NCBI RefSeq assembly: GCF_007829335.1
Contig: NZ_VIWO01000010.1
Span: forward strand, 1 to 64,000
Length of the DNA stretch: 64,000 bases
Direction: 5' to 3'
Source: Chitinophaga polysaccharea
GTDB taxonomy: Bacteria; Bacteroidota; Bacteroidia; Chitinophagales; Chitinophagaceae
Under the pieces are notes generated by a model. That model made no database searches and had not been told where the DNA came from. It worked only from the letters and a program-made list of their open reading frames with translations. Every line of letters starts with the position of its first letter. Positions within the stretch are counted from its first letter, which is position 1. A program made the translations under genes and the position numbers. Of this stretch, positions 12,655 through 41,118 are shown in pieces.

Positions 12655-13801
12655 GGGCCGTTATTTTACCGCGCACGGTGTAGTCAACAATCTGCTGCAA
12701 ACGTTGCCTGTTTACTTCCAGGCTATATTCCCGTTGAAAATCTTCCTGTAACAGTGCTCCTTTATCCGTATCAGCATCAAAGCCAAGTAAGGACTGTTTA
12801 AATGCCGCGGGTTCATCGGCCACGATAAAATGCTTACTCCTTACCCCTTCTACTCCCTTGGAAGTGCTGATAACAGGCGTTCTGAGCGCCATGGCTTCCA
12901 GGCATTTCAACCGGGTACCACTGCCATGCAGCAACGGGATAATCACCGCAGTGGCTACGGATATATACCATTTTACATCATCCACTTTACCAAAAGCCAC
13001 AATGTTTTGGTAGTCATCTTTACCCGTAATACGTTTTAATGCTTCCTTGGATCCCCTGCCTACCAGCCATAGGTCGTACTTTTCGGCCAGCTCTTCATCC
13101 CACACATTTTCAATAAACCATTTCAGACCTGCATAATTCATATATACGCCGAAGTTGGCAGTCATCACCAGTACTCTCCGTTGTTTTTTTCCAAAAAGAG
13201 AATAGTCTTTCTGGTCCAAAAAGTTCGGCACTGTAAACACCTTCTGTTCTGGCAGAAACCGGGTATGGTACGCATGATCATCATCGCTCACCACCAATAC
13301 TGCGGTCGCCTTCCTGAAGTATAACCGCTCATGCAGCTTTTCCATGCCAAACAACTGCAGCTTACGTAGCCGGTCCAGCAGGTTGCCGGAAGGCAGCTGC
13401 CAGGTGATCAGTGGCTGCGCATTATGTGTACCCAGGATCACCGGGATGTTCCGGGTCCTGAAAAAAGAAATATAATGACCTATGTAACCGTAATCGAGCA
13501 TAGCAACGGCCACCGGGTACTCCCGGCATATTTCCCGGAATATATCCAGTATCGCGGAAGACCGCTGAAAATACTGTTTACCGGTAATGCGGGTCACCAG
13601 GTTAAAGTCTTTTACCTCATAAGTATAAAAAGTAACATTAGGGAGATGGTAATTTTGCAAATCTACCTTCTCCACGTTCCGCACTACGGCTATCACGTCA
13701 TGTCCCAGCTGCGACAAGGCTTTGATCAGGTTATAGCTCCTGATCCTTTCTCCCCCGTTTTGCGGGAAAGGTGAAATATCTGTAAAGAATAGTATGTACA
13801 T
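12638..13801 (-). CDS. Family 4 glycosyltransferase
   Basis: A 387-residue GT-B transferase with the N-terminal DISPFPQNGGERIRSYNLIKAL motif and the donor-domain signature SGTRLKCLEAMALRTPVIST, seen in many GT4 sugar transferases of exopolysaccharide and exosortase-linked loci. The central VMTANFGVYMNYAGLKWFIENVW is also typical of this subgroup. It is expected to add one sugar of the repeat. The 17-base overlap with the polymerase gene and a 5-base gap to the flippase gene support a single transcript. Confidence 0.88.
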   Translation of the reverse strand: MYILFFTDISPFPQNGGERIRSYNLIKALSQLGHDVIAVVRNVEKVDLQNYHLPNVTFYTYEVKDFNLVTRITGKQYFQRSSAILDIFREICREYPVAVAMLDYGYIGHYISFFRTRNIPVILGTHNAQPLITWQLPSGNLLDRLRKLQLFGMEKLHERLYFRKATAVLVVSDDDHAYHTRFLPEQKVFTVPNFLDQKDYSLFGKKQRRVLVMTANFGVYMNYAGLKWFIENVWDEELAEKYDLWLVGRGSKEALKRITGKDDYQNIVAFGKVDDVKWYISVATAVIIPLLHGSGTRLKCLEAMALRTPVISTSKGVEGVRSKHFIVADEPAAFKQSLLGFDADTDKGALLQEDFQREYSLEVNRQRLQQIVDYTVRGKITAHAQPA

Positions 13802-13806
13802 CTGCG

Positions 13807-15360
13807 TTAGTTTGCTTTTAATACAACCAGCCTTGCCTGCAACTTTGAAAGGCCCCGGCTAAATAACTGCGTTATCTTTGTCACCTCTTCCGGTGTCAGG
13901 CCAACCAGCCGCACCCAGACAATCATCCCCGTCACACTCACGAGGGTGGTAATACCGAGTCGCACAAATCCCTGCGGAAGAAACAATTGTGGTATGCCTG
14001 CCAGGGTCACAGATAACAGCGCCGGCACTATGGCCCGGATGACTACCTGCCTGGTAAACAGCCATGGCGACAAACCTGTAATCTTCCTGGCGGCAATCAT
14101 ACGGTAAATGCCGCTCACCACTTCTATAGCAATTGCGCTGACCAATACTGCGGAGGAAGGATATCCTGCCTTCAGCAGCAGCCAGGCAACAGGCAGGTTA
14201 AGCAGTACCATGGTACTCACCACCACCTGGTACTTCCTGATTTTACCGACTGACTGCACCGCCACCTGTATGCCAGCAGACAGCTGGTTTATCAGCGTGG
14301 CGACAACAATTAAACGGCACATCATCACTGTATACTCGGGTACCTGTTTCAGCCAGCATTGCAATACAAATGGCATTTCTATCATCATGGGAATGGCAAA
14401 AAAACTCAGCAGGTAAAAGGAAAATTTGCTGGCAATCATCGCCAGCCGCAGCATCCTCGGACGGTCGCCGCTGCCCTCACTTTTTATAATCTGTGGATTC
14501 AATGCCCGTAACATAGTCACAGAGAAATAACTCAATTGTGCATTCACCTGGTTGGCAATACCATAGGCAGCATTGACAATAGTGCCAAAAAACACGTTAA
14601 GCAGCAATGCCAGGCCCTGGTTACGGGCTACCACACTGCCTGCGCCAAACATGTTCCATCCGGCGTAAGCAAACATTTCCTTCAGCAAATGCCGGTCGAA
14701 ATACCGCCGGATGCTGATCCGGCTTTCATCGTACTTCATACCGCAATACACTTGTTTAAACAGCAGCAGCAGCACCGTCAGCAACGCCATCAGTCCCCCG
14801 TATACAATAAGCTTGTCATAACCCGTATACTGCAGGGCCACGGCGATCAACAGCTTCCCCAAAGACTCTGCAACCCCCAGCGCTGCCACCATCACCATAT
14901 TTTCCTGCGCGATCAGGGTAGCGTCATAAGGAACCGAAATAATGGTAAAAAAAGCACTGACCACCATAAACTGGAAAATGAGCTTTGCTGCCATGGTCCG
15001 TTCTACCGGGTAGTTCAATACATAACGGAGAAGGTAGGCTCCTGCCATTTCAAATAACAGCACCATTGCCAGTCCCAGTATAAAATGCAGCAACACGCTG
15101 GCGTTAAATACCGCCCTTAGCTTGTGGCTGTCTTTTGTACCGAGGTAAAAAGACATATACCGCTGTGTACTGATAGTCATGGCAATATTCAGAAAAGATA
15201 ACATGGCAATCACCCCGCTGATCAGGTTAAATAACCCATAATCGGCCGCTCCCAGCAGGTTCAATACCAGCCGGGTGGCGTATAGAGAAATAAAAACGGT
15301 AATCAGCATCCGCCCGTAAAGTGCGCCCGTATTTAAGATTACCTTGTTAGCTACCTGCAT
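13807..15360 (-). CDS. Wzx-like polysaccharide flippase (MOP superfamily)
   Basis: A 517-residue polytopic protein with about 12-14 hydrophobic helices. The N-terminal run ATRLVLNLLGAADYGLFNLI is typical of the oligosaccharide flippase/PST family. It should move undecaprenyl-linked repeats across the inner membrane for the neighbouring Wzy-like polymerase. It lies 10 bases after gmd and 5 bases before a glycosyltransferase. Family membership is secure; the particular substrate is inferred from the locus. Confidence 0.88.
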   Translation of the reverse strand: MQVANKVILNTGALYGRMLITVFISLYATRLVLNLLGAADYGLFNLISGVIAMLSFLNIAMTISTQRYMSFYLGTKDSHKLRAVFNASVLLHFILGLAMVLLFEMAGAYLLRYVLNYPVERTMAAKLIFQFMVVSAFFTIISVPYDATLIAQENMVMVAALGVAESLGKLLIAVALQYTGYDKLIVYGGLMALLTVLLLLFKQVYCGMKYDESRISIRRYFDRHLLKEMFAYAGWNMFGAGSVVARNQGLALLLNVFFGTIVNAAYGIANQVNAQLSYFSVTMLRALNPQIIKSEGSGDRPRMLRLAMIASKFSFYLLSFFAIPMMIEMPFVLQCWLKQVPEYTVMMCRLIVVATLINQLSAGIQVAVQSVGKIRKYQVVVSTMVLLNLPVAWLLLKAGYPSSAVLVSAIAIEVVSGIYRMIAARKITGLSPWLFTRQVVIRAIVPALLSVTLAGIPQLFLPQGFVRLGITTLVSVTGMIVWVRLVGLTPEEVTKITQLFSRGLSKLQARLVVLKAN

Positions 15361-15370
15361 GGCCCTTGAT

Positions 15371-16468
15371 TTATCCGATTAAATGTTCCAGTTGGGTGAC
15401 TTCTTTCTTCGCAAATAAGGCCACATCGCTGGCCATCATTTCCTTTACCAGTGCCGCCAGGTCGTAAGCGGGCTCCCAACCCAGCACCGTCTTTGACTTG
15501 GTAGGATCGCCAATGAGCAACTCCACCTCGGTAGGGCGAAAATAACGGGGATCGATCGCCACAATCTCCTTTCCTAACGGCAGCGCGTATACTTCGTTTG
15601 AGCAGGCGGTAACTACACCGGTTTCGTCTACGCCATTTCCCCGGAAGGAGACAGTGATACCCAACTCGGCAAAGGCCATGCGAACAAACTCGCGGACGGT
15701 GGTGGTAATGCCGGTGGCAATTACATAATCGTCTGGCTGTTCCTGTTGCAAGATGCGCCACATGGCTTCCACATAATCTTTCGCATGTCCCCAGTCGCGT
15801 TGCGCATCAAGGTTGCCCAGGTATAATTTATCCTGCAACCCCAGCGCGATAGCAGCTGCGCCCCTGGTTATTTTGCGGGTCACGAAGGTTTCTCCCCGCA
15901 AAGGGCTTTCATGGTTAAACAGTATACCATTGCAGGCGTACATACCATAGGCTTCCCGGTAGTTAACGGTGATCCAGTAAGCATATAACTTCGCTACAGC
16001 GTAAGGACTACGGGGATAAAAAGGCGTAGTTTCGCGTTGCGGCACTTCCTGCACCAGTCCGTACAACTCCGATGTGCTGGCCTGGTAGATACGGGTTTTC
16101 TTCTCCATTTTCAGGATACGTAATGCTTCCAGTAAACGCAACGTGCCGATACCATCTGCATTGGCTGTATATTCAGGCGTATCAAAACTTACTCTTACAT
16201 GGCTCATGGCGGCCAGGTTATAAATTTCGTCGGGCTGTGTTTCCTGTATAATACGGATCAGGTTGGTGCTATCTGTCATATCACCATAGTGCAAACGAAA
16301 GCGCACATTTTCGCTGTGCATGTCCTGGTATAAATGATCGATACGCTCTGTGTTGATCAGGGAGGCCCGGCGTTTTACGCCATGCACCATATATCCTTTT
16401 CCCAGCAGCAATTCTGCCAGGTAAGCGCCATCCTGGCCGGTGATACCTGTTATCAGGGCTACTTTCAT
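15371..16468 (-). CDS. gmd: GDP-mannose 4,6-dehydratase
   Basis: Converts GDP-D-mannose to GDP-4-keto-6-deoxy-D-mannose, the first step to GDP-L-fucose. The 365 residues form an extended short-chain dehydrogenase with the NADP-binding [14 protein letters not shown] at 8-21, the substrate-binding ERIDHLYQD region, the TSELYG segment and the catalytic [10 protein letters not shown] (Y and K of the YxxxK pair). The match to bacterial Gmd is strong throughout, including [15 protein letters not shown]. It sits with fcl and manC, which complete the GDP-fucose route. A 54-base gap separates it from ugd. Confidence 0.97.
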
Positions 16469-16522
16469 ACAATCGTTATTTAGTGGTGATAGAAATAGTT
16501 ATTATAGTTGCCTGGCTGTGCT

Positions 16523-17869
16523 TTATCGCAGCAATGCATTAACCGGTGTAGCAGCAGTGTTGCCGATACCGTAATAAGTAAAACCCATTTTCACCAGTTC
16601 AACGTCATCATAAATATTGCGACCATCGAACAACAACGGCGATCGCATGAGCCCTTTCAGTCGCGGCCAGTCCGGTATCCGGAACATATTCCACTCTGTT
16701 ACCAGCAGCACTGCCACCGCATCTTCCGCGGCCTGGTACATATCATCCGCAAAAGTGATGTTGCTGCCCAGATAAATCACTGCTTCCTTCATGGCTACCG
16801 GATCATATGCACTCACCATAGCGCCGGCATCCAGCAGGCTACGGATCAGCACCAGCGACGGCGCCTCCCGCATATCATCCGTATTCGGCTTAAATGACAA
16901 TCCCCATACAGCGAACTTTTTATTGCTGACATTCCCATCAAAATGGCGGAGTATCTTCTGGAATAACAGCTGCTTCTGATCTTCATTCACCGCCTCCACC
17001 GCATCGAGGATACGAAGCCGGTAACCATACTCGCGGCCGGTTTGTATAAGGGCTTTTACGTCTTTTGGGAAACAGGAACCGCCATAGCCGATACCGGGAT
17101 ACAGAAAATGCTTGCCTATCCTCGGATCACTGCCAATACCTTTACGTACCTGGTTGATATCGGCGCCTACCAACCCACATAAATTAGCGATATCATTCAT
17201 ATAGGATATCCTGGTAGCCAGCATAGCATTGGCGGCATATTTGGTCATTTCCGCAGAAGCAATGTCCATAAACAGGATCGGGTGTCCGTTTAATAAGAAA
17301 GGGCGGTACAACTGCTCCAGTTTTTGCCTGGCCCGCAGTGTATTAACACCAACGACTATACGGTCTGGCTTCAGGAAATCATTCACGGCTGCGCCTTCTT
17401 TCAAAAACTCAGGATTGGAGGCTACATCATAATCGACGATCATTCCCCGCGTATACAAACTCTCTTTCACGGCCCGGTTAACGTGAACGGCAGTACCCAC
17501 TGGCACCGTGCTTTTGGTAACGATCACCAGGTAATGATCCATGAGCGCCCCTACCTCGCTGGCCACCTGCAATACATATTGCAGGTCGGCGCTCCCATCT
17601 TCCCCCGGAGGGGTACCCACCGCAATAAATACTACTTCTGCTCCCGGCAGCGCCGTAGCCAGCCGGGTCGTAAAAGACAAGCGCCCTCCCTGCTGATTAC
17701 GCACCACTATCTCCTGCAAACCCGGCTCATAAATTGGCAATATGCCATTTTGCAACCGGGCAATCTTTTCCGCATCTACATCAACGCAAACCACTTCCGT
17801 TCCCACTTCTGCCAAACAGGCGCCCGTTACCAAACCAACGTATCCTGTACCTACAATGACTACTTTCAT
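16523..17869 (-). CDS. ugd: UDP-glucose 6-dehydrogenase
   Basis: Oxidises UDP-glucose to UDP-glucuronate with two NAD+. The 448 residues contain the N-terminal Rossmann motif VGTGYVGLVTGACLAE, the conserved VASNPEFLKEG, the K in EMTKYAANAMLA, and the catalytic cysteine in GIGYGGSCFPKD. The length is normal for the UDP-glucose/GDP-mannose dehydrogenase family. UDP-glucose is preferred over GDP-mannose as substrate because of overall resemblance to Ugd/TuaD and the colanic-like gene set; GDP-mannose dehydrogenase activity is a less likely alternative. Glucuronate would make the polymer acidic. Confidence 0.92.
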   Translation of the reverse strand: MKVVIVGTGYVGLVTGACLAEVGTEVVCVDVDAEKIARLQNGILPIYEPGLQEIVVRNQQGGRLSFTTRLATALPGAEVVFIAVGTPPGEDGSADLQYVLQVASEVGALMDHYLVIVTKSTVPVGTAVHVNRAVKESLYTRGMIVDYDVASNPEFLKEGAAVNDFLKPDRIVVGVNTLRARQKLEQLYRPFLLNGHPILFMDIASAEMTKYAANAMLATRISYMNDIANLCGLVGADINQVRKGIGSDPRIGKHFLYPGIGYGGSCFPKDVKALIQTGREYGYRLRILDAVEAVNEDQKQLLFQKILRHFDGNVSNKKFAVWGLSFKPNTDDMREAPSLVLIRSLLDAGAMVSAYDPVAMKEAVIYLGSNITFADDMYQAAEDAVAVLLVTEWNMFRIPDWPRLKGLMRSPLLFDGRNIYDDVELVKMGFTYYGIGNTAATPVNALLR

Positions 17870-17880
17870 ACAACTGGCAT

Positions 17881-18825
17881 TTAAGATTGTAATTTGAACT
17901 GGTCTTGCTGTAGAAAATCCCTGTATGCCATTACCAACCCCTCTCTCAAAGTAATGCTATGTTTCCACCCCAACCGGTGCAACCTGGATACATCCATTAA
18001 CTTACGGGGAGTGCCATCAGGTTTACTGTCATCAAATATCAGCTCGCCCTCATAACAAACCACTTCTTTGATATATTCTGCCAGCTGTTTAATAGTCAGG
18101 TCTTCTCCTTTACCAATGTTCACCGGCTCCTTTTCGTTATAGTGCTGCATCAGGTAAACACAGGCATCCGCCAAATCATCGGCAAAAAGAAATTCCCGTT
18201 TAGGCGTTCCCGTTCCCCATACGGTAACCGATGGTTTATTATTCACTTTTGCTTCATGAAAGCGCCGGATCAATGCTGGCAATACGTGCGCATTTTCAGG
18301 GTGGTAGTTATCACCAATACCGAAAAGATTAGTAGGCATCACACTGATAAAGTTGCAGCCATACTGATCCCGGTAGGCTTCGCATAATTTGATGCCTGCA
18401 ATTTTAGCAATGGCATAAGGCTCATTGGTTTGTTCCAGCAACCCCGTCAGCAAAAAGCTTTCTTTGATCGGCTGCGGCGCCATGCGGGGATAGATACACG
18501 AACTGCCGAGAAACTGCAGCTTGGTAACACCATATTTCCAGGCAGCATGTATTACGTTAGCTGCGATCATCAGGTTATCGTACAGGAACTCGGCCCGGTA
18601 GGTATTATTGGCGTGTATACCACCCACCTTAGCTGCTGCCAGGAATACATAGGCGGGTTTTTCTGCGGCAAAAAAAGCCTCTACGTCTTCCTGTTTGCGC
18701 AAGTCAAGGCTACCGGAGCTGCGTGTAATAATGTTATGATAGCCGAGCGTTTCCAGTCTCCTCTTAATGGCGCCTCCGACCATACCACGGTGACCGGCTA
18801 TATAGATAGGATCATTTGCTTCCAT
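17881..18825 (-). CDS. fcl: GDP-L-fucose synthase
   Basis: Epimerises and reduces GDP-4-keto-6-deoxy-mannose to GDP-L-fucose (also called WcaG). The 314 residues have the NADP motif [11 protein letters not shown], the GSSCIYP segment, the catalytic YAIAK pair, and the typical [31 protein letters not shown] region (read in parts). It directly follows manC after 16 bases and precedes ugd by 11 bases. With Gmd it makes the full two-step route from GDP-mannose. Confidence 0.97.
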
Positions 18826-18841
18826 ATACTTTGATTATTAT

Positions 18842-19864
18842 TTATAGTAATTCGGGACGGTTATCTCTTACCCATTGATGCAATTGTTTAATATCCTGCC
18901 CCCGGCCTCGTTTCATAATCAGCAGGGCGCTGGCGGTATTTACTACTACGATATTTTCCACGCCTACGAGGGCTACCAGTTTATCTTTTCCGATCACCAA
19001 ATTCTTTCGTGGATCACTCTCTATAAACACAGCCTGGTGATTACGGTATTGATAATGCTGAGAGAGTGCATCTGCCAGTGCTTCATAACTGCCTACATCG
19101 CTCCAGTCCATTTTTGTAGGCACTACTTTCACAAGGCTGCTTTTCTCCAGTACGGCATAATCAATACTGTCTGACGGAATGGCTTCCATTGTTTCTCTGG
19201 ACAAGGCTCCGGTACTTTTCCATTCAGCGGCGGCAATAGCGGCGGCTTCATAGATAGCTGGCGCATGTTGTTGTAATTCCTGCAGCATGACACCGGCTTT
19301 ACAGCAAAAAATGCCACTGTTCCACAGAAACCCGCCCGCAGCCAACATAGCCTCTGCCACTACCCGGTCAGGCTTCTCCACAAACCGCAGCACGTCATGG
19401 CCAGCATAACTGATATAGCCAAAACCTGTTTCCGGATAGGTGGGCACCAGCCCGATGGTAACAATATGATTTCCGGCGGCCAATATCCCCGCCGTTTCTA
19501 TGGCCATGGCGTACCTGTCGGGGGTACCAATGAGATGGTCAGCAGGAGTGATAAGTAAAATAGTTTCGGGATCGGCTACAAAAGCAGCCAGCGCAATGGC
19601 GGCGGCCGTATTACGCCCCACCGGTTCTGCCAGGCATACCGGGGCTGATGCGCCTGCCTGTTCCAGCTGCTCCAGCACCATCTCCGCCTGTTGTTCATTT
19701 ACAATGGCCATCACTTTGTTACAGGCAAAACGGTTGCGCCGGAAAGCCAGTTGCAGGAGACTATAACCATCAAACAACGTTAGCAACTGCTTGGGAGTTT
19801 GCTGATTCGATAAAGGCCATAACCGGGTGCCCGAGCCACCGCAAAGAAGAATATGTTGCATCAT
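18842..19864 (-). CDS. manC: Mannose-1-phosphate guanylyltransferase, single-domain
   Basis: Makes GDP-mannose from mannose-1-phosphate and GTP. The nucleotidyltransferase signature GGSGTRLWPLSNQQTPKQLL lies at residues 8-27, and ENIVVVNTASALLIMKRG near the end is typical. At 340 residues it lacks the C-terminal type II phosphomannose isomerase cupin found in longer ManC/AlgA proteins, so mannose-6-phosphate must be made elsewhere. No phosphomannomutase gene is in this window. It lies 16 bases downstream of the antiterminator gene. Confidence 0.94.
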   Translation of the reverse strand: MMQHILLCGGSGTRLWPLSNQQTPKQLLTLFDGYSLLQLAFRRNRFACNKVMAIVNEQQAEMVLEQLEQAGASAPVCLAEPVGRNTAAAIALAAFVADPETILLITPADHLIGTPDRYAMAIETAGILAAGNHIVTIGLVPTYPETGFGYISYAGHDVLRFVEKPDRVVAEAMLAAGGFLWNSGIFCCKAGVMLQELQQHAPAIYEAAAIAAAEWKSTGALSRETMEAIPSDSIDYAVLEKSSLVKVVPTKMDWSDVGSYEALADALSQHYQYRNHQAVFIESDPRKNLVIGKDKLVALVGVENIVVVNTASALLIMKRGRGQDIKQLHQWVRDNRPELL

Positions 19865-31812: not shown

Positions 31813-32730
31813 ATGAAAAAATTAAATTATTGCAACAGCTATATCCCTATTTTACTGCTATTGCTTCTTTGCAATTCCTGCGAAAAAAATATAGATCTCC
31901 AGCTGGATAAAACGCCTCCCATGCTGGTAGTAGAAGCCTATATCAACAATAGTATCCGCACCTATAACTATGTAATCATCGGCAAAACTGTCAACTTCAA
32001 TGAATCACAATTTGCCAATACCGCCGTGGAAAAAGCAACGGTAACCATCACTGAAGGCTTTTTCGAAAAAGGAAAAGGTTATCAATGGAATCCTGCCAGT
32101 ACAGTAACGATGAAAGAAGGCAAAACACCCGGCATGCACGGCCTGTATGTTCCAGGCGCCTACTTTGATCCCAAACTTACTACCGACTCTTCTCACGCCC
32201 TATTAGGTAAACCTGGAAAGTCCTATCTGCTTGAAATTATGGCAGGAGGAAAGAAATATACAGCTATCACCACGTTACCCATCCCGGTGCCCATTGATAG
32301 CCTTACGAATACCCCTCCATTTAAAGACGACTCCGGAAAAGTACAGGCCCGGCTTACTGTACATTATACAGACCCTGATACACTTGGCAATGCACAGATT
32401 TATTATTGGGGCAACCGTTACACTAAAAATACATTTGGATGGGGCGCACTTAGTACAGACAGGTATCTACCCAATACAGACGACCTGGTAAACGGACAGG
32501 ACATACATATCACACATTCAGCTCCCCTGCCAATCGGCGACACGGCTATTTACTACCTTGTTAGTGTAGAACGTCCCGTACATGATTTCTGGGACAGTTT
32601 TAATAAAGCGAGGGTCAATAGCGGCCCATTTTCTACCCCTGTTGTGCTGAAAAGCAACATAAAGGGCAGCAATGTAGTCGGGTGTTTCAGCGGTTTTGCG
32701 GTGAGTAGTATGAAACACGTGATGAAATAA
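31813..32730 (+). CDS. DUF4249 lipoprotein
   Basis: A 305-residue lipoprotein: a signal peptide ends in the lipobox LLLCNSC (Cys23), then PPMLVVEAYINN opens a DUF4249-type beta-rich domain. DUF4249 proteins are commonly encoded after TonB receptors in Bacteroidota and are thought to sit on the outer membrane as the receptor's accessory lipoprotein, but the ligand is not known. The gene ends shortly before a bidirectional terminator shared with the giant convergent gene. Confidence 0.88.
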   Translation: MKKLNYCNSYIPILLLLLLCNSCEKNIDLQLDKTPPMLVVEAYINNSIRTYNYVIIGKTVNFNESQFANTAVEKATVTITEGFFEKGKGYQWNPASTVTMKEGKTPGMHGLYVPGAYFDPKLTTDSSHALLGKPGKSYLLEIMAGGKKYTAITTLPIPVPIDSLTNTPPFKDDSGKVQARLTVHYTDPDTLGNAQIYYWGNRYTKNTFGWGALSTDRYLPNTDDLVNGQDIHITHSAPLPIGDTAIYYLVSVERPVHDFWDSFNKARVNSGPFSTPVVLKSNIKGSNVVGCFSGFAVSSMKHVMK

Positions 32731-32740
32731 TGATTAGGCA

Positions 32741-32788
32741 ATAAAAAAGCCGGCTGAAAGCATTGCTGCTTCCAACCGGCCTGAAAAA
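32741..32788. terminator. Bidirectional terminator between convergent genes
   Basis: The stem GCCGGcTgaaAGCA (32749-32762) pairs with TGCTtccAaCCGGC (32767-32780) around a short loop. An A-tract lies before it and an A-rich stretch after it. Read on the minus strand the A-tract becomes T6, so it ends the 2033-residue gene; it also sits just after the DUF4249 gene. Confidence 0.8.
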
Positions 32789-32802
32789 TACACCTACTGA
32801 TA

Positions 32803-35800
32803 TTACACAGTGGCATCCGCAGGAGTGGCTCCGGGGGCGAGTTTGAATATTTCGTTTTCAAACATCACTTTAGGGCCATTCGCATACGGTGTTCGGGCTT
32901 TCCAAAAATTAAGCAACCTGGTACAAAAATCGATCGCGTTTCTTGCACCGATCAATCCATTGAAGGTTTCCAGTTTGCTGGTATCTAAAAGACTGGTATC
33001 ATACTTATCGTATTTATCATGATCATCATGATTCTGTCCTTTGTAGCAATGGAAGTTCTGGATGTCTCCGTAATCTCCGAACTTTCCAGGCTGGAACTGG
33101 TCAGTAGTGCCTGGTTTAAGATCACCGGGATTCTTCAGTACCCTTCTTACGTGCCCTTTGGCGAAGGAATCCTGGATCAGGTGCATCAGGGATCCAATGG
33201 CCCTTCTGGAGTTGTTAAGGAATACACATTTTGTATTGCGGTTCAGCAACGTATTAATGGTATCTGTTTCCAGTGGATCGGATGCCGCCGTAAAGAACGA
33301 ATTGACAGTGTAAGTGGTACTACCGAATTTACTGGTGACTGGCACCGATTTCAGCGTATCCGTATCCATGATTCCCTCATTGATAGACAATTTATACATG
33401 AATTCCGCCCACAGCAGCACCTTGGCTTGCGTATCTTTAGGATCCTCTCCTATCGCCGCTGCCATACCGTGCAGGAACTGCATGTCCCAGTAATGGGATC
33501 TGCCGGTAAGGTTTTTCAGATCGTTGGCACTGGCCTTGCCAGCGGTGTCAAACTTGTTCTTCCACATAATGCCGCTGGAGAAATCCCAGTTATCATACTT
33601 GTTCTCATCAAACAACAGGATGGCCGGATCATCATTCCATATTACCCCGCGGAAAAATTCATTCACCGCCTGATCACTGCCCACCTTGGTGGTGGTAGGA
33701 ACGCCAACGGATGATTTGATCAACGCCGCCAGCGTCACATTTTCATGCACCGGGTTATTAAGATTCCATGGACCTTCTATCTGGTAGCCTTCGGAGGTAC
33801 CGTCAATTTTGTCTTTGAAGTGTACCACCTGTACAAACAGGTTATCAGATTTGTTATCCGTCACCATCTGTTCAAATGCCGCGATGAATTCGAGGAAGCT
33901 CTGTGACTTTTCTGAGCCGGTAGCAGGATCGTTGAAGATAAAGTAAGTACCTGTTCCGTTCGGGTTACCGGTGCCTTCAATCCTGGTGAGGATACGGGCA
34001 TGAGGCGAGAACATACCAGTGGCCACACTGGCATCGGTGGTTATCCACAGCGGTCCGTAAGCCTTCATCCAGTCGATATATTGTTGTACCGGGTAATCTG
34101 CAGGAGGTTCGCCCACCATACCCAGTTTACCGATAAATGCTTCTTTCTCGCTCGACTTCAGCCCCTGCTTGTTCGTAAATTTATCTACGTATTCATCGCC
34201 GGCCAGTGCCAGTACGGTTGGAACTGTCATTGGCTTCTTCATCTTCCAGCTGACCATCATCGTAGCGGCAGTAGCCCAGCAAGCCAGGTTGTTATCCTGT
34301 TGCAGTTTGGGCACAACGCCTTCTACAGCAGCCAGCACAGTGCCGTTCTTGCCTCCGCTGCTGATCTCTACAGATTCTATATTGCCTTCCGGATCAGTTT
34401 TCTGTGCTTTCACATCCTTACCCTGGTCTGCAGCTTTTACAGCAGCATCTGTTAAGGTAGGTTTCTGCGTAGCTTTTTCTTTTTCCAGTTCAGCTTTCTT
34501 GGTTGCTCCACCGTCAATCTGCTGTTGCAGGTGTTCTTTTACCAGCTTACCGTAATCTTCACTGCTGATAGCGCCGGAATCTTTTGCATTCTTCAGGGTA
34601 TCCATGATCTTGGAAGAGTTATCGGTATTATGTCCCTGCATAGCCATGCTCTTCGCCATCTCTGCAAATGCTTTCGCATTTTCCTGGTTGGAGAGATAGG
34701 TTTTAATAGCATTCTGCTGGTTAGCATCCAGGCCGGTAATATCCTTGAAGATACCTGCCTTGCCCAACAGTTCTGTTATACCTGCCAGTCCGGCGCCTGG
34801 TTCCGGTGCTGCCGGCGCATTCTGGATATTGACGATCGGCGTAGCAAAATCCTTGAAGGCTGCTTTCCAGTCGGTAACAGTAGGTACTGGTGGGGTAATC
34901 GGATTGATTTGTGAAGGTTCATCCGTCGGGAACTTATTCCAATCCTGTGAAGAATTTTCTTTCACCTTCTCACAAGCATCGCAGGCGCCCTGTACCGCTT
35001 CCATAAACACGCCCCTGGTGGGGATGCTAATCCGGTAAGGAGGAACCGGGGTGATAGGTTGATAGTGATCCAATAGGGTTATTTCCTGTTCTACGCCATC
35101 GCCGGTTTTTTCTGTGATGAAAGACTGGCTCACTTTATAGCCTGGCGCTACGGGCAGCACAAGGGAATTACCCACAATACTGATCAGCTGATTTTTGACT
35201 ACCGACGCCAGGCTTCTGAAACCTACGGGTATGCCGAAATCGTTAAAGATCTGGATATTGAAACCATCCAGCAGCATAAACCTTCTGTCTGCATCCAGGT
35301 TATACCACAGTGCTTTATTATAATGCTCCAGGTTACTGTTGAGATGTTCTATCAGCTTCTGCACCAGGTAGCGGTCTTCTTTACGCGGATCTTTTTTCTC
35401 GTCCGCATTTTCAGGAATGTAGAGCAGGGTATCGTCGAGCAGGTCGTCGCCCACGCTGCCACTGTATAACAATCCGTTAAAGTGAGGCGTAGAATAGGCA
35501 ATACGCACATTTTCCACGGTAAGTGTTACCAGGTCTTTTAGTGTTTTTACCACGGGGCTGTTGCAGAACATTTTCATAGTCAATGGAAAATCGACCCGGC
35601 GTTTGCTGGTGGTACCTTCAAAATTAATGCGCATCACACGCTCACCGCCCTTGTAGCGGGACGTGCTGGTCATATCAGTGCCGATATATTCCAGGCGGAT
35701 ACTGTCTACGATCTTATCAAAAACCACCGGTGCAATATCATTGTAATAGATATCATCCCATTCGGATATGAGCCTGCCTTTGAAATAGTAGTCCAGCATT

Positions 35801-38800
35801 TCCAGCGTATTATTGTATCCCAGGATGGAAGCATAAGCGTCCCACAGCTTCTTATCTACGATACCGTTCTGGAAAAAGTCTACGGGAGAAATGGTGATAT
35901 TGATACCGGAAAACTTAATGCTAAAAGCTTCGAAATTTACGACCCGGATACATTTTGCCGGCGGCACATATTCGTAATTAGCATCCAGTTGCATGAAAGA
36001 ATCGAAGATCTTTTCTTTCGCCAGTATTTCCTCTGTTTCTGTATGGGAGCCATCAGAGCCGAAGAGAAAGGACAACCCGCCGGTCATAACCCCCAGCATA
36101 GCGCTTTTGGCTATACTACGCGCATCGGTTACCTCTTTCGTTACCGTTTTGGTGATAATAGGCAGGGACTTAATGCGATCGTATTTGGTTTTAGGCCTTT
36201 GCAAATTTGTGCGGATATTAATATCTCCTTTTACAAAGCTGATCGGCTCCTGGTCGTAAGATCCAGTCGGGTAGTCTACGTGCGCGTAATTCGTTTTGAT
36301 CCTTTCATTGGCATCAAATGCCTTCAGCAACGGGTGTTGCGGCCTTCCGTAGAAAAAGCTGAATGGCTTCAGGTACGTGTTGGAAGACATGGGCAACAGG
36401 TTCTTGGCCAGGATATCAGACCATTTAAAGATATTATCGGTCGTAAAATTGGTCATCAGCAGCGGAACAAACACACATTCTTCTACATTCACCAGTTCCT
36501 GGTAGATGGCAAAATGGCGCAGTACTTCAAAATACATCATCGTGAGGGCGTGGCAGTGGTTATGATTGGCCACTACATCGGCGGTAGCGCCATATGTTTG
36601 CCCCTCCTGTACAGAAGTCACCACGGAAGCATTCAACCTCCGGTAGCTTTCTGCATTCTGCATAATAGACTGGCGCAGCCTTTCCCCGAAGAATTGGGAT
36701 ACATTGCGGGAGCTGTTTTGCGACGCGTTGGAGTTGGAATTGGAATAACCGCCGGCAACGCCCAGGGAAGCGCCTATGCCGCCATAGCTAACGCCTACGC
36801 CTAAACCGGCACTGACACCGCTGGTAGACGCGGAACTACTGCCCTGCAAGGCTTCGTTGATATTGCCTCCCAGCTGATCGGTGATAGAGCGGTCATTTAG
36901 CAGGTTGGCCGCCAGGCTTTCCCCTTGTGCGATAGACTGGTTTTCGGCCCCTAACAGGGAGTGCGTGGCATCAATCACTACCATCTGTTTTTTCTGCCCG
37001 GGAGCCAGCGCCAGGGAATACAGGAGGTCTCCCATGGAATATCCATCTGCCTTAAACTCCGATTTATAATGCAGAATATGACCGGTAGCAACGGTTACAG
37101 ACTGGTAAAAAGAAAGGTTATCCCCGGCATCCGGGGCATCCTGCCACCTTACCGGGTTATCCAGGTCTACTGCTGCACGTTTAATTTTCTTATTATCTCC
37201 CACCAGTTCAAAGGTGCCATTCTCCAGTTTGCGCAGGGTATAGTTGGATACATCCGGATCGGAGGTGCGTACAATCGCCTGGTAGTTATATTCTCTTAAG
37301 GTGCGGTTGGGGGTCGACAGGTTCACGCAGGAACCGCCAATATCCTGGGAATACTGGTCGGAGTTGATCAGGTCTTCCTGCCCGGGTAACCGTCCCGACT
37401 TCTTTACGGAATGACACGCGCAGTCATCATCACCATGGCTGTCGCCGGTTGTGGCACAATCAGCACCATTTACCAGCAGGTACAGGAAGTCTGCGGAAAT
37501 GGACTGATTATTCTTGGAGGCCGGATCTGTGGCGATTGTTACCGGGCTTTGCGGAGTCAGGGACACTAATGCCTGCGCTGCGATATACACGCCGAAAGGA
37601 TAAGCCATGGAAAAATTACCGGCGCTATCTGCATCGGCAGCTCCCACTATCTGCCAGGGCTGATCTTCGGCTTTCTTCGCCTGTACCAGTACGGTAACTC
37701 CTTTCAGATCGCATTGCTTACTCAGCTCTACCAGCTGTCCTCTCAGGCGTTTGTTTTCATCTTTACTACCGCTTTTATCGCCAGAGGTAATTACGTTCGG
37801 GCGTTGCAGCGGAACTGAAATCGCGAGACTTCCCAGCGCTGCATCATCTACCCGGTAATCTTTTGACCAGATAATTGTTTTATCGAAATTTTTCACTTTT
37901 ACGGAAATCACGCCATCGACGTTGCGCTGCAACAGCGGATTGTCCTGGGTAAAAGAGAACTTGATTTTACCGCTATGAAAATCTGTTTTATGCGCCATCC
38001 AGTCGAAATGCAGGATCTGCATCAGGGAGGTGTTATCGGCAATATGGGAAGCGTATTCCACCGACAGATCAAAGAGCAGCAGATCTGTAAACCCTACATC
38101 CGTATTGTCGGTACTAACTACTTCAAAGGTACCGCTGATATCTACTGTTTTCAGCTCCGGCATCAGCAACGAAAAATCGAACAGCTGTGCGAAATTGGCT
38201 ATCGTGTAATCGATCACCTGCTTGATGCTTGTTTCCTGTACGCCCAACGCGCCTAATATGCCGGCGATCTTTGTTTTCAGCGCATCGTCGATATCTGTGC
38301 GCAATGCAGGCGCTGGTCCGCTGAGATCTACCAGCTGGTTAATCACGTACAACAGGTAAAATCCTTCCTGGTCGGAGGAAATATTCCCAAATTTCTCCAG
38401 GAATTTCAGGTACACTGACTTGTTGAGCAGGTAAAGGTTCTTGTTGATATAGATTTCAGCATTTCCGTCGGCGGCATTTGCATTTAATAGCCGTAGCGAT
38501 CTTTGTGCAGGGGCAAGATCTTTCAGGAAATAGATGCCTTCCAGAACAGTGGCATCTGTGGCATTACCGGCACCACCATACGTTACCTGCAGGCTGACAG
38601 AGATATCATTTAAGGTAACGCCGGTAGTGGGCGACGAATTAAAATGAAGCTGGAAAAATTTGGCCAGCAAATCATAAGCAGTACTGAACATACTGCCTTC
38701 CGGAAGCGCACTGAAGTAGGTGGTGGCACTTACTTCTTGTGAAAAGCTAATAGTGGCATTACCTGACTTTTCCCTGGTCACCTGGCCACTGGTATCAGCG

Positions 38801-38904
38801 ATCTTGAAGGAGAATACAGGATAGCCGACGTTAATAGGAACTTTACTAAACGGCAGCTTAGTAGGGTCCGCAGCATAGCGGAACGACTTTTGGAGCGTTA
38901 ACAT
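32803..38904 (-). CDS. Giant multidomain protein: papain-like protease plus zinc-PLC-like module
   Basis: A 2033-residue protein of unknown role with no signal peptide. Residues 1-520 are beta-rich and unassigned. Residues about 520-1000 form a conserved-looking scaffold with LALAPGQKKQMVVIDATHSL, a Gly/Ser-rich patch (685-728) and VVANHNHCHALTMMYFEVLRHF (about 774-795). I recall this scaffold from large uncharacterised proteins of several phyla. Residues about 1380-1510 are helical and charged. A papain-like (C39-type) module follows, with Cys1542 in NNLACWATAATMM, His1635 in SPHARIL and Asn1658-Asp1659. The C-terminal 300 residues include RGVIWNDDP and H1908-x3-D1912-x5-H1918 (HLIQDSFAKGH), the zinc-site pattern of zinc phospholipase C/S1-P1 nucleases, then FHCYKGQNHDDHDKY. 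The combination suggests an effector or self-processing enzyme. That is inference. Confidence 0.75.
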   Translation of the reverse strand: MLTLQKSFRYAADPTKLPFSKVPINVGYPVFSFKIADTSGQVTREKSGNATISFSQEVSATTYFSALPEGSMFSTAYDLLAKFFQLHFNSSPTTGVTLNDISVSLQVTYGGAGNATDATVLEGIYFLKDLAPAQRSLRLLNANAADGNAEIYINKNLYLLNKSVYLKFLEKFGNISSDQEGFYLLYVINQLVDLSGPAPALRTDIDDALKTKIAGILGALGVQETSIKQVIDYTIANFAQLFDFSLLMPELKTVDISGTFEVVSTDNTDVGFTDLLLFDLSVEYASHIADNTSLMQILHFDWMAHKTDFHSGKIKFSFTQDNPLLQRNVDGVISVKVKNFDKTIIWSKDYRVDDAALGSLAISVPLQRPNVITSGDKSGSKDENKRLRGQLVELSKQCDLKGVTVLVQAKKAEDQPWQIVGAADADSAGNFSMAYPFGVYIAAQALVSLTPQSPVTIATDPASKNNQSISADFLYLLVNGADCATTGDSHGDDDCACHSVKKSGRLPGQEDLINSDQYSQDIGGSCVNLSTPNRTLREYNYQAIVRTSDPDVSNYTLRKLENGTFELVGDNKKIKRAAVDLDNPVRWQDAPDAGDNLSFYQSVTVATGHILHYKSEFKADGYSMGDLLYSLALAPGQKKQMVVIDATHSLLGAENQSIAQGESLAANLLNDRSITDQLGGNINEALQGSSSASTSGVSAGLGVGVSYGGIGASLGVAGGYSNSNSNASQNSSRNVSQFFGERLRQSIMQNAESYRRLNASVVTSVQEGQTYGATADVVANHNHCHALTMMYFEVLRHFAIYQELVNVEECVFVPLLMTNFTTDNIFKWSDILAKNLLPMSSNTYLKPFSFFYGRPQHPLLKAFDANERIKTNYAHVDYPTGSYDQEPISFVKGDINIRTNLQRPKTKYDRIKSLPIITKTVTKEVTDARSIAKSAMLGVMTGGLSFLFGSDGSHTETEEILAKEKIFDSFMQLDANYEYVPPAKCIRVVNFEAFSIKFSGINITISPVDFFQNGIVDKKLWDAYASILGYNNTLEMLDYYFKGRLISEWDDIYYNDIAPVVFDKIVDSIRLEYIGTDMTSTSRYKGGERVMRINFEGTTSKRRVDFPLTMKMFCNSPVVKTLKDLVTLTVENVRIAYSTPHFNGLLYSGSVGDDLLDDTLLYIPENADEKKDPRKEDRYLVQKLIEHLNSNLEHYNKALWYNLDADRRFMLLDGFNIQIFNDFGIPVGFRSLASVVKNQLISIVGNSLVLPVAPGYKVSQSFITEKTGDGVEQEITLLDHYQPITPVPPYRISIPTRGVFMEAVQGACDACEKVKENSSQDWNKFPTDEPSQINPITPPVPTVTDWKAAFKDFATPIVNIQNAPAAPEPGAGLAGITELLGKAGIFKDITGLDANQQNAIKTYLSNQENAKAFAEMAKSMAMQGHNTDNSSKIMDTLKNAKDSGAISSEDYGKLVKEHLQQQIDGGATKKAELEKEKATQKPTLTDAAVKAADQGKDVKAQKTDPEGNIESVEISSGGKNGTVLAAVEGVVPKLQQDNNLACWATAATMMVSWKMKKPMTVPTVLALAGDEYVDKFTNKQGLKSSEKEAFIGKLGMVGEPPADYPVQQYIDWMKAYGPLWITTDASVATGMFSPHARILTRIEGTGNPNGTGTYFIFNDPATGSEKSQSFLEFIAAFEQMVTDNKSDNLFVQVVHFKDKIDGTSEGYQIEGPWNLNNPVHENVTLAALIKSSVGVPTTTKVGSDQAVNEFFRGVIWNDDPAILLFDENKYDNWDFSSGIMWKNKFDTAGKASANDLKNLTGRSHYWDMQFLHGMAAAIGEDPKDTQAKVLLWAEFMYKLSINEGIMDTDTLKSVPVTSKFGSTTYTVNSFFTAASDPLETDTINTLLNRNTKCVFLNNSRRAIGSLMHLIQDSFAKGHVRRVLKNPGDLKPGTTDQFQPGKFGDYGDIQNFHCYKGQNHDDHDKYDKYDTSLLDTSKLETFNGLIGARNAIDFCTRLLNFWKARTPYANGPKVMFENEIFKLAPGATPADATV

Positions 38905-39299: not shown

Positions 39300-39704
39300 G
39301 CGTTGGTTATCGCAGGTAAGGTTGTAAAGCATCTGTCATGCCGCCGATTACTTTACCAATGAAAATAGTAGTGCGGGATAACGGTGCAATTAGCACTTCT
39401 TTCAGGAAATCTATTTTTTTATCCCATACAATGTACGCGCCATTAAACAGGGAACTGAAGATAATCGTCATAACAAGAAATCCAGGGAAAATGAAATGCC
39501 GGTAGGATGTATCGCCAGCCGATGTAATAGCTCCCACACCACTTCCGAAAATGAAATACCAGAATATCGGCAAGAAAATAGCTGATACAATTCTGTTACT
39601 CTCATAGATCCTAGTTCAGCGCCCATATTGGAGGACGACATCTGATGAAAAATATTGCGTAAGGCGGTATTATAGTTAGCCTTTGTTTTAACAATGGTAA
39701 CCAT
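39300..39704 (-). pseudogene. Decayed ABC-2 type transporter permease (DrrB/NodJ-like)
   Basis: Remnant of an ABC-2 family permease. The N-terminus reads in one frame from the ATG at 39704 (MVTIVKTKANYNTALRNIF). The rest reads in another frame from about 39606 (ESNRIVSAIFLPIFWYF, then FPGFLVMTIIFSSLFNG, IVWDKKIDFLKEVLIAPLSR, FIGKVIGGMTDAL) and then hits a stop. Only about 130 of the family's usual 240-260 residues are left, so it has at least one frameshift plus loss of the C-terminal half. No ABC ATPase gene is near. A functional short product is unlikely because most membrane helices are missing. Confidence 0.8.
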
Positions 39705-39789: not shown

Positions 39790-41118
39790 TCAGACGCCGA
39801 AGGGGTAGGTTTCGGGCATCTGGGTGCCATCCGGTTTGATATGCAGCGGATGAAGCGCAGTTACATGATCCAGGTAAATAAAAGCATCATAGCGTAAAGG
39901 AAGAATGCTGGGCACATAATTGCCATATCGTTCATACTCCGGATGGTAAACAACTCCAATAGCGCGATGCCCTACGGGCACTTCCAAAAACTGGGTATTA
40001 CGAAGATCGTCCATTAAAAACCATTTATTACAGTCCCCTTCATTTCTAAGCAGATACTCCCAGCTCCCTGTTTGCGCGGGCGGGACGGTCATATTGGCCA
40101 TTCGGGCGCCCCACCTTTTTCCTGCTATCACATGACCCTGATAAGCACCAAAACCAACAAGCGCGACCTGGTGTTCCCCAAATTTAGCCCTGGCGAGCTC
40201 ACCTATATTTACCATGCCTTCACTGGCCATATCAGTAGCCCGGGCGTCACCAATATGCGTATTATGCGCCCAGATAATAGCTTTCGACTGCCCCCCATGA
40301 AATTGCAGTAACCGTTCCAGGGTTTCTTCCATATGCAGGTCACGGATATTCCAGGAATGAGGCCCCCCTTTTATCATTGCACTATAGTAATTTTCTGCGT
40401 GTACTGCCACCAGCGCATTTTGTTCGGTGCTAAAAGCACTTTCATGATCGGTGTCGTAATGCGGGAAGCGTTGCCGTATATCCCGTAAGAGATTCACCAC
40501 CTCTGTCTTGCATAACTCCGGTACCAGCGCGGTAGCTCTTGCATAACCATGTCCTTCCTCTGTGCGATATGGCTCAAAGCACTGATAGGCTTCTTCTGCT
40601 ACGCTGACCATGGCCGGATCTTCCTTTCTCAGGTAAGCCAGGATGGCCTCCATACTCTCCCAAAGGCTGTATACATCCAGTCCATAGAATCCAATCTTCT
40701 TTTCGACAGACAATGATACATTGTAATTATATAACCATTCTCCGAGGGCTGTAATCTCCCAGTTGGCCCACATCCAGGTAGGCCAGCGGTTAAATGAATG
40801 CAGTACATTAAATGCGCTACTCCCGGATTGATCATAATGCTTTATATACCGGTTAAACCGGTAACAATCAGGCCAGTCACCTTCTACTGCAATAAAATTG
40901 AAACCTTTTTCTGCAATAAGCCTTTGTGAAATGTAATTACGCCACTTGTAATACTCGTGATTCCCGTGTGAAGCCTCTCCCAACATTACCACACGCGCAT
41001 GACCAATTTTGTCAATTAAAAGATCAAGGTTCCCTCCCTTGGTAAAAGGATGAGCAGCCCTGTGAAGATCAGCTATAGACACCGTAGTATCAAGAGTATG
41101 CTTAAAATAGTGATCCAT
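39790..41118 (-). CDS. Erythromycin esterase family protein
   Basis: A 442-residue cytoplasmic protein of the EreA-like family. The family landmarks are visible: VVMLGEASHGNHEYYKWR (with the His/Glu used for hydrolysis in EreA-type enzymes), FIAVEGDWPDCYRFNRYI, and AIIWAHNTHIGDARATDM with its histidines. Most family members outside resistance plasmids have no shown activity on macrolides, so a resistance function should not be assumed. It is divergent from an alpha/beta hydrolase and a phosphoribosyltransferase, a grouping often seen with this family. An FNR-like palindrome lies between them. Confidence 0.88.
   Translation of the reverse strand: MDHYFKHTLDTTVSIADLHRAAHPFTKGGNLDLLIDKIGHARVVMLGEASHGNHEYYKWRNYISQRLIAEKGFNFIAVEGDWPDCYRFNRYIKHYDQSGSSAFNVLHSFNRWPTWMWANWEITALGEWLYNYNVSLSVEKKIGFYGLDVYSLWESMEAILAYLRKEDPAMVSVAEEAYQCFEPYRTEEGHGYARATALVPELCKTEVVNLLRDIRQRFPHYDTDHESAFSTEQNALVAVHAENYYSAMIKGGPHSWNIRDLHMEETLERLLQFHGGQSKAIIWAHNTHIGDARATDMASEGMVNIGELARAKFGEHQVALVGFGAYQGHVIAGKRWGARMANMTVPPAQTGSWEYLLRNEGDCNKWFLMDDLRNTQFLEVPVGHRAIGVVYHPEYERYGNYVPSILPLRYDAFIYLDHVTALHPLHIKPDGTQMPETYPFGV

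Follow-up and report, generated by a model that had tools for sequence, protein, structure and literature searches.

In a 64,000-nucleotide stretch of the Chitinophaga polysaccharea genome (positions 1 to 64,000 of contig NZ_VIWO01000010.1, assembly GCF_007829335.1; hereafter the window), a single minus-strand gene encodes a 2,033-residue protein in which a carrier region of about 1,500 residues is followed by a papain-like protease domain of family C70 and by a C-terminal module that probably holds a zinc site, its ligand set resembling that of S1-P1 nucleases and zinc phospholipase C (PLC). The protein is real, conserved and modular. We read it as a variant of the polymorphic-effector kind, in which the C70 domain would free the cargo hydrolase in cis, exposing Tyr1707, for an attack on neighbouring cells, a reading that we hold to be evenly poised between right and wrong; the weapon function is unproven. 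The protease family, the metal-ligand set, the exchange of C termini and the junction are read from sequence, and from there we infer release and activation of the cargo by C70, both of which are plausible.

The gene and its protease domain comprise the following features.

32803..38904, minus strand: whole gene, 2,033-residue protein
33880..34314, minus strand: Peptidase_C70 (papain-like) domain, residues 1531–1675
34279..34281, minus strand: Cys1542 codon, predicted nucleophile
34000..34002, minus strand: His1635 codon
33928..33930, minus strand: Asp1659 codon, predicted third catalytic residue

The initial annotation, made by a model from the DNA letters alone, had proposed this reading frame of 2,033 residues, and it holds: the frame starts with ATG, is open and intact, and has 98%-identical counterparts in two named Chitinophaga genomes (L024 and L025). 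A further copy, in the Duganella sacchari genome, is split over two contig ends (L026/L060); its residues 1268–2033 are closer to the window protein (68% identity) than its residues 1–1263 (54%), pointing to different constraint or to recombination.

Residues 1531–1675 are, as a firm assignment, a C70 papain-like protease domain. They match PF12385 with an E value of 9.2e-25 and a score of 87.6 bits against a curated cut-off of 19, so that the Cys/His/Asp triad is not a chance pattern, and Pfam returned nothing besides Peptidase_C70 on the whole protein at E values up to 1. The earlier guess of a papain-like or C39 protease was thus right as to the papain-like kind, the family being C70 and not C39. 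Its triad of Cys1542, His1635 and Asn1658 or Asp1659 was placed correctly and is conserved in the C70 alignment: Cys1542 and His1635 are invariant in all seven aligned domains, and the third position aligns with Asp1659 (Asp in six of the seven, Asn in Duganella), not with Asn1658. Gln1536, presumably the oxyanion glutamine, is kept across the seven domains together with Cys1542, His1635 and Pro1660. The C70 domains of three other carriers are 47–68% identical to that of the window protein, those of three proteins from outside the carriers 30–36%, and C70 therefore looks like a kept part of a carrier subset, with the cargo changing behind it. Sequence searches of the Protein Data Bank (PDB) gave an unconvincing best E value of 0.046 for the C70 profile and no match for the whole protein.

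C70 also occurs outside the carriers. The window's own genome encodes an 841-residue protein (L035:7805-10330, on G000:C2) that joins C70 to a phage-type lysozyme and a glucosaminidase domain, near an M15 peptidase protein, a subtilase and proteins without an assigned family; we considered this cluster as an injection locus and dropped the idea, Pfam above its cut-offs having named only wall hydrolases and the subtilase. In another locus (L036), C70 is a stand-alone protein of 172 residues.

Between protease and cargo lies a short conserved junction that the initial annotation missed.

33784..33792, minus strand: Glu1705-Gly1706-Tyr1707, proposed cleavage junction after Gly1706

E-G-[GY] stands 7–12 residues past the last 'HF' of the C70 domain, directly before the cargo, in all eight C70 carriers found, three of which are near-identical Chitinophaga copies. 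The spacing is 8, 8 and 8 in these three, 7 in G172, 8 and 8 in G001 and G101, 12 in G699 and 8 in Duganella. At least three unlike cargos follow the tripeptide, with cargo sequence diverging right after it, and it is absent from the C70 protein of L035.

The cargo of the window protein has the following features, the module being delimited by its relatives and alignments and each candidate zinc ligand being invariant in 16 of 16 aligned sequences.

32806..33786, minus strand: zinc-PLC/S1-P1-like module, residues 1707–2033
33745..33747, minus strand: His1720 codon (in VHE), candidate zinc ligand
33631..33633, minus strand: Asp1758 codon (in WND), candidate zinc ligand
33151..33183, minus strand: His1908-x3-Asp1912-x5-His1918
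33007..33021, minus strand: His1962-x3-Asp1966

The exact H-x3-D-x5-H pattern at residues 1908–1918, which had first drawn attention to this end of the protein, is its sole copy there, and checking by alignment bore out the conservation of its three named residues. Shuffling the residues yields a mean of 0.034 copies of the pattern, and 0.35% of 2,000 shuffles also had a following H-x3-D; as the bare pattern occurs in 2 of 44 other window open reading frames (ORFs) of at least 150 residues, the weight rests on its conservation in all 16 rows. In that alignment 22 positions are fully invariant, among them Glu1721, Trp1756, six histidines and three aspartates (His1720, Asp1758, His1804, His1812, His1908, Asp1912, His1918, His1962 and Asp1966), and the order and spacing of the invariant His and Asp residues are those of the zinc ligands of S1-P1 nucleases. 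A set of 45 Bacteroidota S1-P1 nucleases shows near-invariant (at least 93%) W, H, D, H, HxxxDxxxxxH and HxxxD, in that order, with the Trp following the signal peptide in 43 of the 45.

Profile comparison points the same way at borderline strength. In local, unguided mode, hhalign paired both HxxxDxxxxxH and HxxxD of the module with those of the 45 nucleases (P = 0.0045), paired the first motif only with a 16-sequence S1-P1 set (P = 0.0021, or 0.005 with another reference row) and gave P = 0.022 against Zn_dep_PLPC proteins; controls gave 0.091 and 0.049 for the reversed profile and 0.38 and 0.11 for the carrier core. These values support a relationship between module and S1-P1 nucleases without establishing it. 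They resemble the published case of the Het-C domain, reported at 'borderline significance (p =.001; 50% probability)' (PMC3482391), with a lower probability from hhalign itself for our S1-P1 pairing (8–13%). Het-C was also considered as the module's own family, and Pfam gave no match to it. The zinc-PLC/S1-P1-like module of the initial annotation thus stands as an independent module with a complete ligand set, its family membership being negative in Pfam and borderline by profile, and a zinc site is likely.

Independence of the module is evident from its stand-alone relatives. It occurs in 10 of 245 genomes of the Duganella family, namely Duganella itself and nine with stand-alone proteins, on four plasmids (tblastn) and, by profile search, once in viral contigs, again as a stand-alone protein (L058); in Bacteroidota the window's own genome was the only one of 395 to match. 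All 14 stand-alone relatives have a signal-like N-terminal segment in the open frame, as judged by eye, which in the Acidovorax relative lies upstream of the annotated start. The residue after this segment is Phe or Tyr in 13 of the 14 and Ser in one, giving a start of the form [FYS]-x-[ILV], and the fusion has a start of the same kind from Tyr1707 behind Glu-Gly.

The effector-like layout that had been proposed is supported by the exchange of C termini among relatives that keep the rest. From the first residue to about residue 1520, the close carriers are 47–53% identical over the aligned parts; beyond that their ends differ. C70 is followed by the zinc module in the window protein, its two near-identical copies and Duganella; by Amidase_2 in G001 and G101 (a Pfam match on G001 only, the tail of G101 being alike by eye); by a tail without an assigned domain in the first of two G172 copies; and by an HExxH tail, recognized by eye, in G699. 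The second G172 copy ends in DUF2272. These two G172 frames (L027:7204-13722 and 13706-19393) lie in tandem with no gene between them and an overlap of 17 bases, measured on open frames whose start codons are provisional, and have the same N-terminal part with different C termini. The tails of G240 and G280 bear an HEILH motif by eye (G240 has no Pfam match; the G280 tail was not scanned), and that of G406 reads HEIGHSLSLPH by eye, with a Reprolysin_3 match below cut-off (E = 0.0096). Among distant carriers, G476 and, below cut-off, the Psychrobacter protein end in OmpA, and the fecal phage record and Haladaptatus proteins end in DUF2272, members of which may be peptidoglycan amidases (PMC10318531). 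At an E value of 0.01 no C-terminal Pfam match was found in the Caballeronia, Nostoc and Polaromonas carriers, and G070 had no Pfam match; these C-terminal scans left out the Streptomyces, Embleya, Ruegeria and Novosphingobium proteins. A conserved N-terminal part with swapped C-terminal domains is what these comparisons establish.

The carrier itself is a widespread family without an entry in Pfam, NCBIfam or PHROGs, a breadth that the initial annotation also missed; in the window protein its parts are as follows.

37360..38904, minus strand: carrier N-terminal part, residues 1–515, conserved in close carriers only (blastp)
36160..37359, minus strand: core segment A, residues 516–915 (approximate), common to distant relatives in several phyla and a haloarchaeon
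34525..35757, minus strand: core segment B, residues 1050–1460 (approximate), co-occurring with segment A in distant relatives

No match to the carrier region of the window protein was found in the three libraries. Segment A contains a Gly/Ser-rich stretch and an N-x-N-x-x-H motif (NHNHCH in the window protein), and 15 residues are invariant across sixteen aligned cores, some of them partial. Within the family, 19 of 294 genomes match the protein: six hold full-length-like carriers (G000, the window's own; G001; G101; G172, with two copies; G240; G280), two hold distant carriers (G070 and G149), two the C70 domain only, and nine a short segment-A protein. The core profile matches 10 of 395 Bacteroidota genomes (four long carriers and six short proteins) and 2 of 245 genomes of the Duganella family. 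It also occurs in 29 plasmid records, with 18 from Streptomyces (16 of them, among the matches listed, from S. clavuligerus), two each from Ruegeria, Novosphingobium and the archaeon Haladaptatus, and others from Caballeronia, Psychrobacter, Polaromonas, Embleya and Nostoc, as well as in one unverified fecal phage record; scans of viral contigs found neither a carrier nor a C70 relative. An AlphaFold model of the core was unusable, with a predicted local distance difference test score (pLDDT) of 30.

Several members vary this plan. The short segment-A proteins (L012-L020, some also within L037-L042; L102-L107) are mostly about 430–500 residues long. The Psychrobacter carrier (L045:6999-12269) has an N-terminal helix-hairpin-helix motif just below the Pfam cut-off (E = 1.5e-5), the Haladaptatus carrier (L049:6801-10901) is an archaeal member with DUF2272, and in the distant carrier of G149 (L034:7406-12208) a PA-IL-like lectin domain separates core segment A from segment B, instead of standing at the C terminus.

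On the mechanism that we propose, the carrier would leave the cell or reach its target, and C70 would then cut in cis after Gly1706, freeing the last 327 residues as a hydrolase with three metals bound in a site of the S1-P1/zinc-PLC type. By analogy with those enzymes, the cargo would need an aromatic residue, Tyr1707, as its free N terminus within the metal site; the uncut protein would then be an inactive proenzyme, and the C70 cut would both free and activate the cargo. The proposal derives from the position of Glu-Gly directly before Tyr1707 and from the aromatic start of the relatives after their signal-like segment. In the PC-PLC of Listeria, one extra residue before Trp1 abolishes activity and every substitution of Trp1 except W1F significantly lowered it (PMC10576769); in S1 nuclease, zinc is bound by the main chain of the N terminus (PMC5201275); and the C70 protease AvrRpt2 self-cleaves (PMC8150971), its sites in the plant target being PxFGxW (PMC3661340). 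Since domains of wall-active families occur in sister carriers, the protein would likely be used against neighbouring cells, at their envelope or nucleic acids. A broader form of the proposal holds that the carrier family delivers exchangeable enzymes in bacteria and haloarchaea and that in one branch C70 releases and activates the cargo, its aromatic N terminus becoming a zinc ligand, a zymogen switch that would spare the producer a separate immunity protein; this we offer tentatively, as something rather unlikely.

A number of observations weigh against release and activation. The junction E-G-[GY] differs from PxFGxW, and G172, G001 and G699 each have one extra E-G-[GY] elsewhere in the carrier, so the tripeptide by itself is no specific mark. 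A single event may lie behind both the window and the Duganella fusion, in which case their shared E-G-Y is not independent, and the fusion may simply have joined the cargo at the point where a secreted protein naturally begins behind its signal peptide, making Gly-Tyr a fusion point rather than a cleavage site. The arm from N terminus to first His is 12 residues in the fusion and longer in stand-alone relatives, whose N-terminal aromatics fall outside the column of Tyr1707 in the 16-row alignment, several of them sharing it in other alignments. The module has one invariant His beyond need, and further W, H, D and E residues are near-invariant in the S1-P1 set, including a second His and an Asp near the central motif, for which we claim no counterpart in the module. 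None of five module members matched PF02265 or PF00882 in Pfam at E values up to 10, so we do not file the module as an S1-P1 or zinc-PLC member. In global mode hhalign aligned two columns (P = 0.8). S1-P1 against Zn_dep_PLPC, a pairing that ought to have succeeded, reached only P = 0.038–0.059, which marks the test as insensitive. The structure prediction that had been suggested as a check gave a helical module model of pLDDT 39, too poor to use, and searches with it returned no S1-P1 or PLC match; PDB sequence searches gave unconvincing best E values of 0.72 for the module and 0.35 for its profile. With Pfam negative, the profile comparison borderline and the models poor, the S1-P1/PLC fold is unproven. 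Around the gene, no immunity gene was recognized among ORFs of at least 60 residues and no adjoining secretion genes were recognized, and outside C70 the window protein matches no known trafficking domain or leader in Pfam, NCBIfam or PHROGs. As far as looked, this agrees with the initial annotation, which had reported no immunity gene, known secretion tag, signal peptide or Rhs repeat: neither a known leader nor a Pfam repeat is present, and inspection by eye shows no signal peptide.

Three other explanations compete with this reading. The two enzymes might be separate warheads on one chain that does not process itself, C70 being an effector protease that attacks proteins of the target cell and the zinc module a second effector. 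C70 is indeed a known effector protease family (PMC10318531), and in the same genome it stands before lysozyme and glucosaminidase domains (L035), with the 172-residue stand-alone form of L036 as a further case; yet release accounts better for the presence of E-G-[GY] in eight of eight C70 carriers found and not in L035, and for the varying cargo behind C70, and we regard separate warheads as unlikely. Alternatively, the module might be a metal hydrolase of an unrelated fold that is as yet undescribed, or its His and Asp residues structural, the S1-P1 likeness being convergence on a common motif. The missing Pfam match, an hhalign signal that is borderline, confined to local mode and empty globally, and the lack of a usable fold match all speak for this, but W/Y, H, D, H, HxxxDxxxxxH and HxxxD are shared in their complete order and the unforced local alignment pairs both motifs at once; we judge this alternative quite unlikely.

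Least probable to us is that the protein is not a weapon at all and serves wall turnover in its own cell, the scavenging of nutrients or predation-type lysis, the zinc module then being a phosphodiesterase. Its stand-alone relatives do look like ordinary secreted proteins, and no immunity gene was seen. A patchy occurrence (6 of 294 family genomes and 2 of 245 Duganella-family genomes) across different phyla, a sharp insertion boundary and variable C termini fit accessory effectors better, however, and no signal peptide is seen by eye.

The boundary in question lies at the 3′ side of the gene, beside the following gap.

32730..32802, no strand: gap beside the insertion boundary, from DNA comparison with genus relatives that lack the gene at this place

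Against these relatives, DNA similarity stops at 32729, the stop codon of the neighbouring DUF4249 gene, in L127 and L128 and at 32697 in L129 and L130. All four retain the TonB receptor and DUF4249 genes, the latter being the 3′ neighbour also where the big gene is missing, and the big gene is absent from the 13–13.5 kb compared in each (the whole genomes of these four were not searched). Upstream in the window lie short ORFs and an erythromycin esterase; in strain Ak56, some 300 bases separate the 5′ end of the big gene from a methyltransferase gene, and the erythromycin-esterase stretch is missing. The similarity ending at the DUF4249 side and the differing 5′ neighbourhood place the gene in a variable region. 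The short ORFs at 39307-39704, which overlap one another between the big gene and the erythromycin-esterase-family gene (39790-41118), resemble what we take to be a broken ABC-2-type permease gene. As to delivery, a link to contractile injection (extracellular contractile injection or type VI secretion systems) is not supported: the tail sheath PF04984 was found at an E value of 0.001 or lower in 3 of 12 carrier genomes as against 8 of 17 genomes without a carrier-search match, and above the cut-off in 1 of 12 as against 4 of 17, and so shows no association.

If the reading is correct, a large carrier family unmatched in Pfam, NCBIfam and PHROGs would extend the known repertoire by which bacteria and archaea present exchangeable enzymes, and proteolytic release would at the same time make a metal ligand. 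Thanks to the conserved E-G-[GY] junction and the exchange of cargos, release is easily put to the test. Whatever the cargo does, the carrier core, with its N-x-N-x-x-H motif and Gly/Ser-rich stretch in Streptomyces, Nostoc, Pseudomonadota, Bacteroidota and Haladaptatus, merits a family entry.

We found no paper describing this protein or its carrier at title and abstract level in the open-licence PMC literature. The nearest described systems are the polymorphic toxins with releasing peptidases (Zhang et al. 2012, PMC3482391), which share the long conserved N-terminal part, the protease and the exchangeable C-terminal enzyme, and that study describes papain-like releasing peptidases as well as a Het-C toxin domain of PLC/S1-P1-like type; AvrRpt2 is not named in the available text of that paper. 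Unlike those toxins, the present protein has no immunity gene that we see and no known trafficking domain or leader, and its carrier is unmatched in the libraries. With AvrRpt2 and the C70 family (PF12385) the protease domain shares a profile match and the catalytic residues, whereas AvrRpt2, an effector injected into plants, cleaves its target at PxFGxW (PMC3661340) and the C70 domain here is internal to a 2,033-residue protein with a proposed site at E-G-[GY]. With the S1-P1 nucleases and zinc PLCs (PF02265, PF00882) the module shares the order and spacing of His and Asp residues and, in 13 of 14 stand-alone relatives, an aromatic residue after the signal-like segment; it differs in its size of about 330 residues with long inserts, in Tyr or Phe instead of Trp at the N terminus and in its fusion behind a protease. 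A precedent for the proposed switch is the PC-PLC proenzyme of Listeria, a zinc PLC whose N-terminal residues hold it inactive until a protease activates it (PMC10576769), although there the enzyme is secreted, the propeptide is 26 residues long and a separate protease acts in trans.

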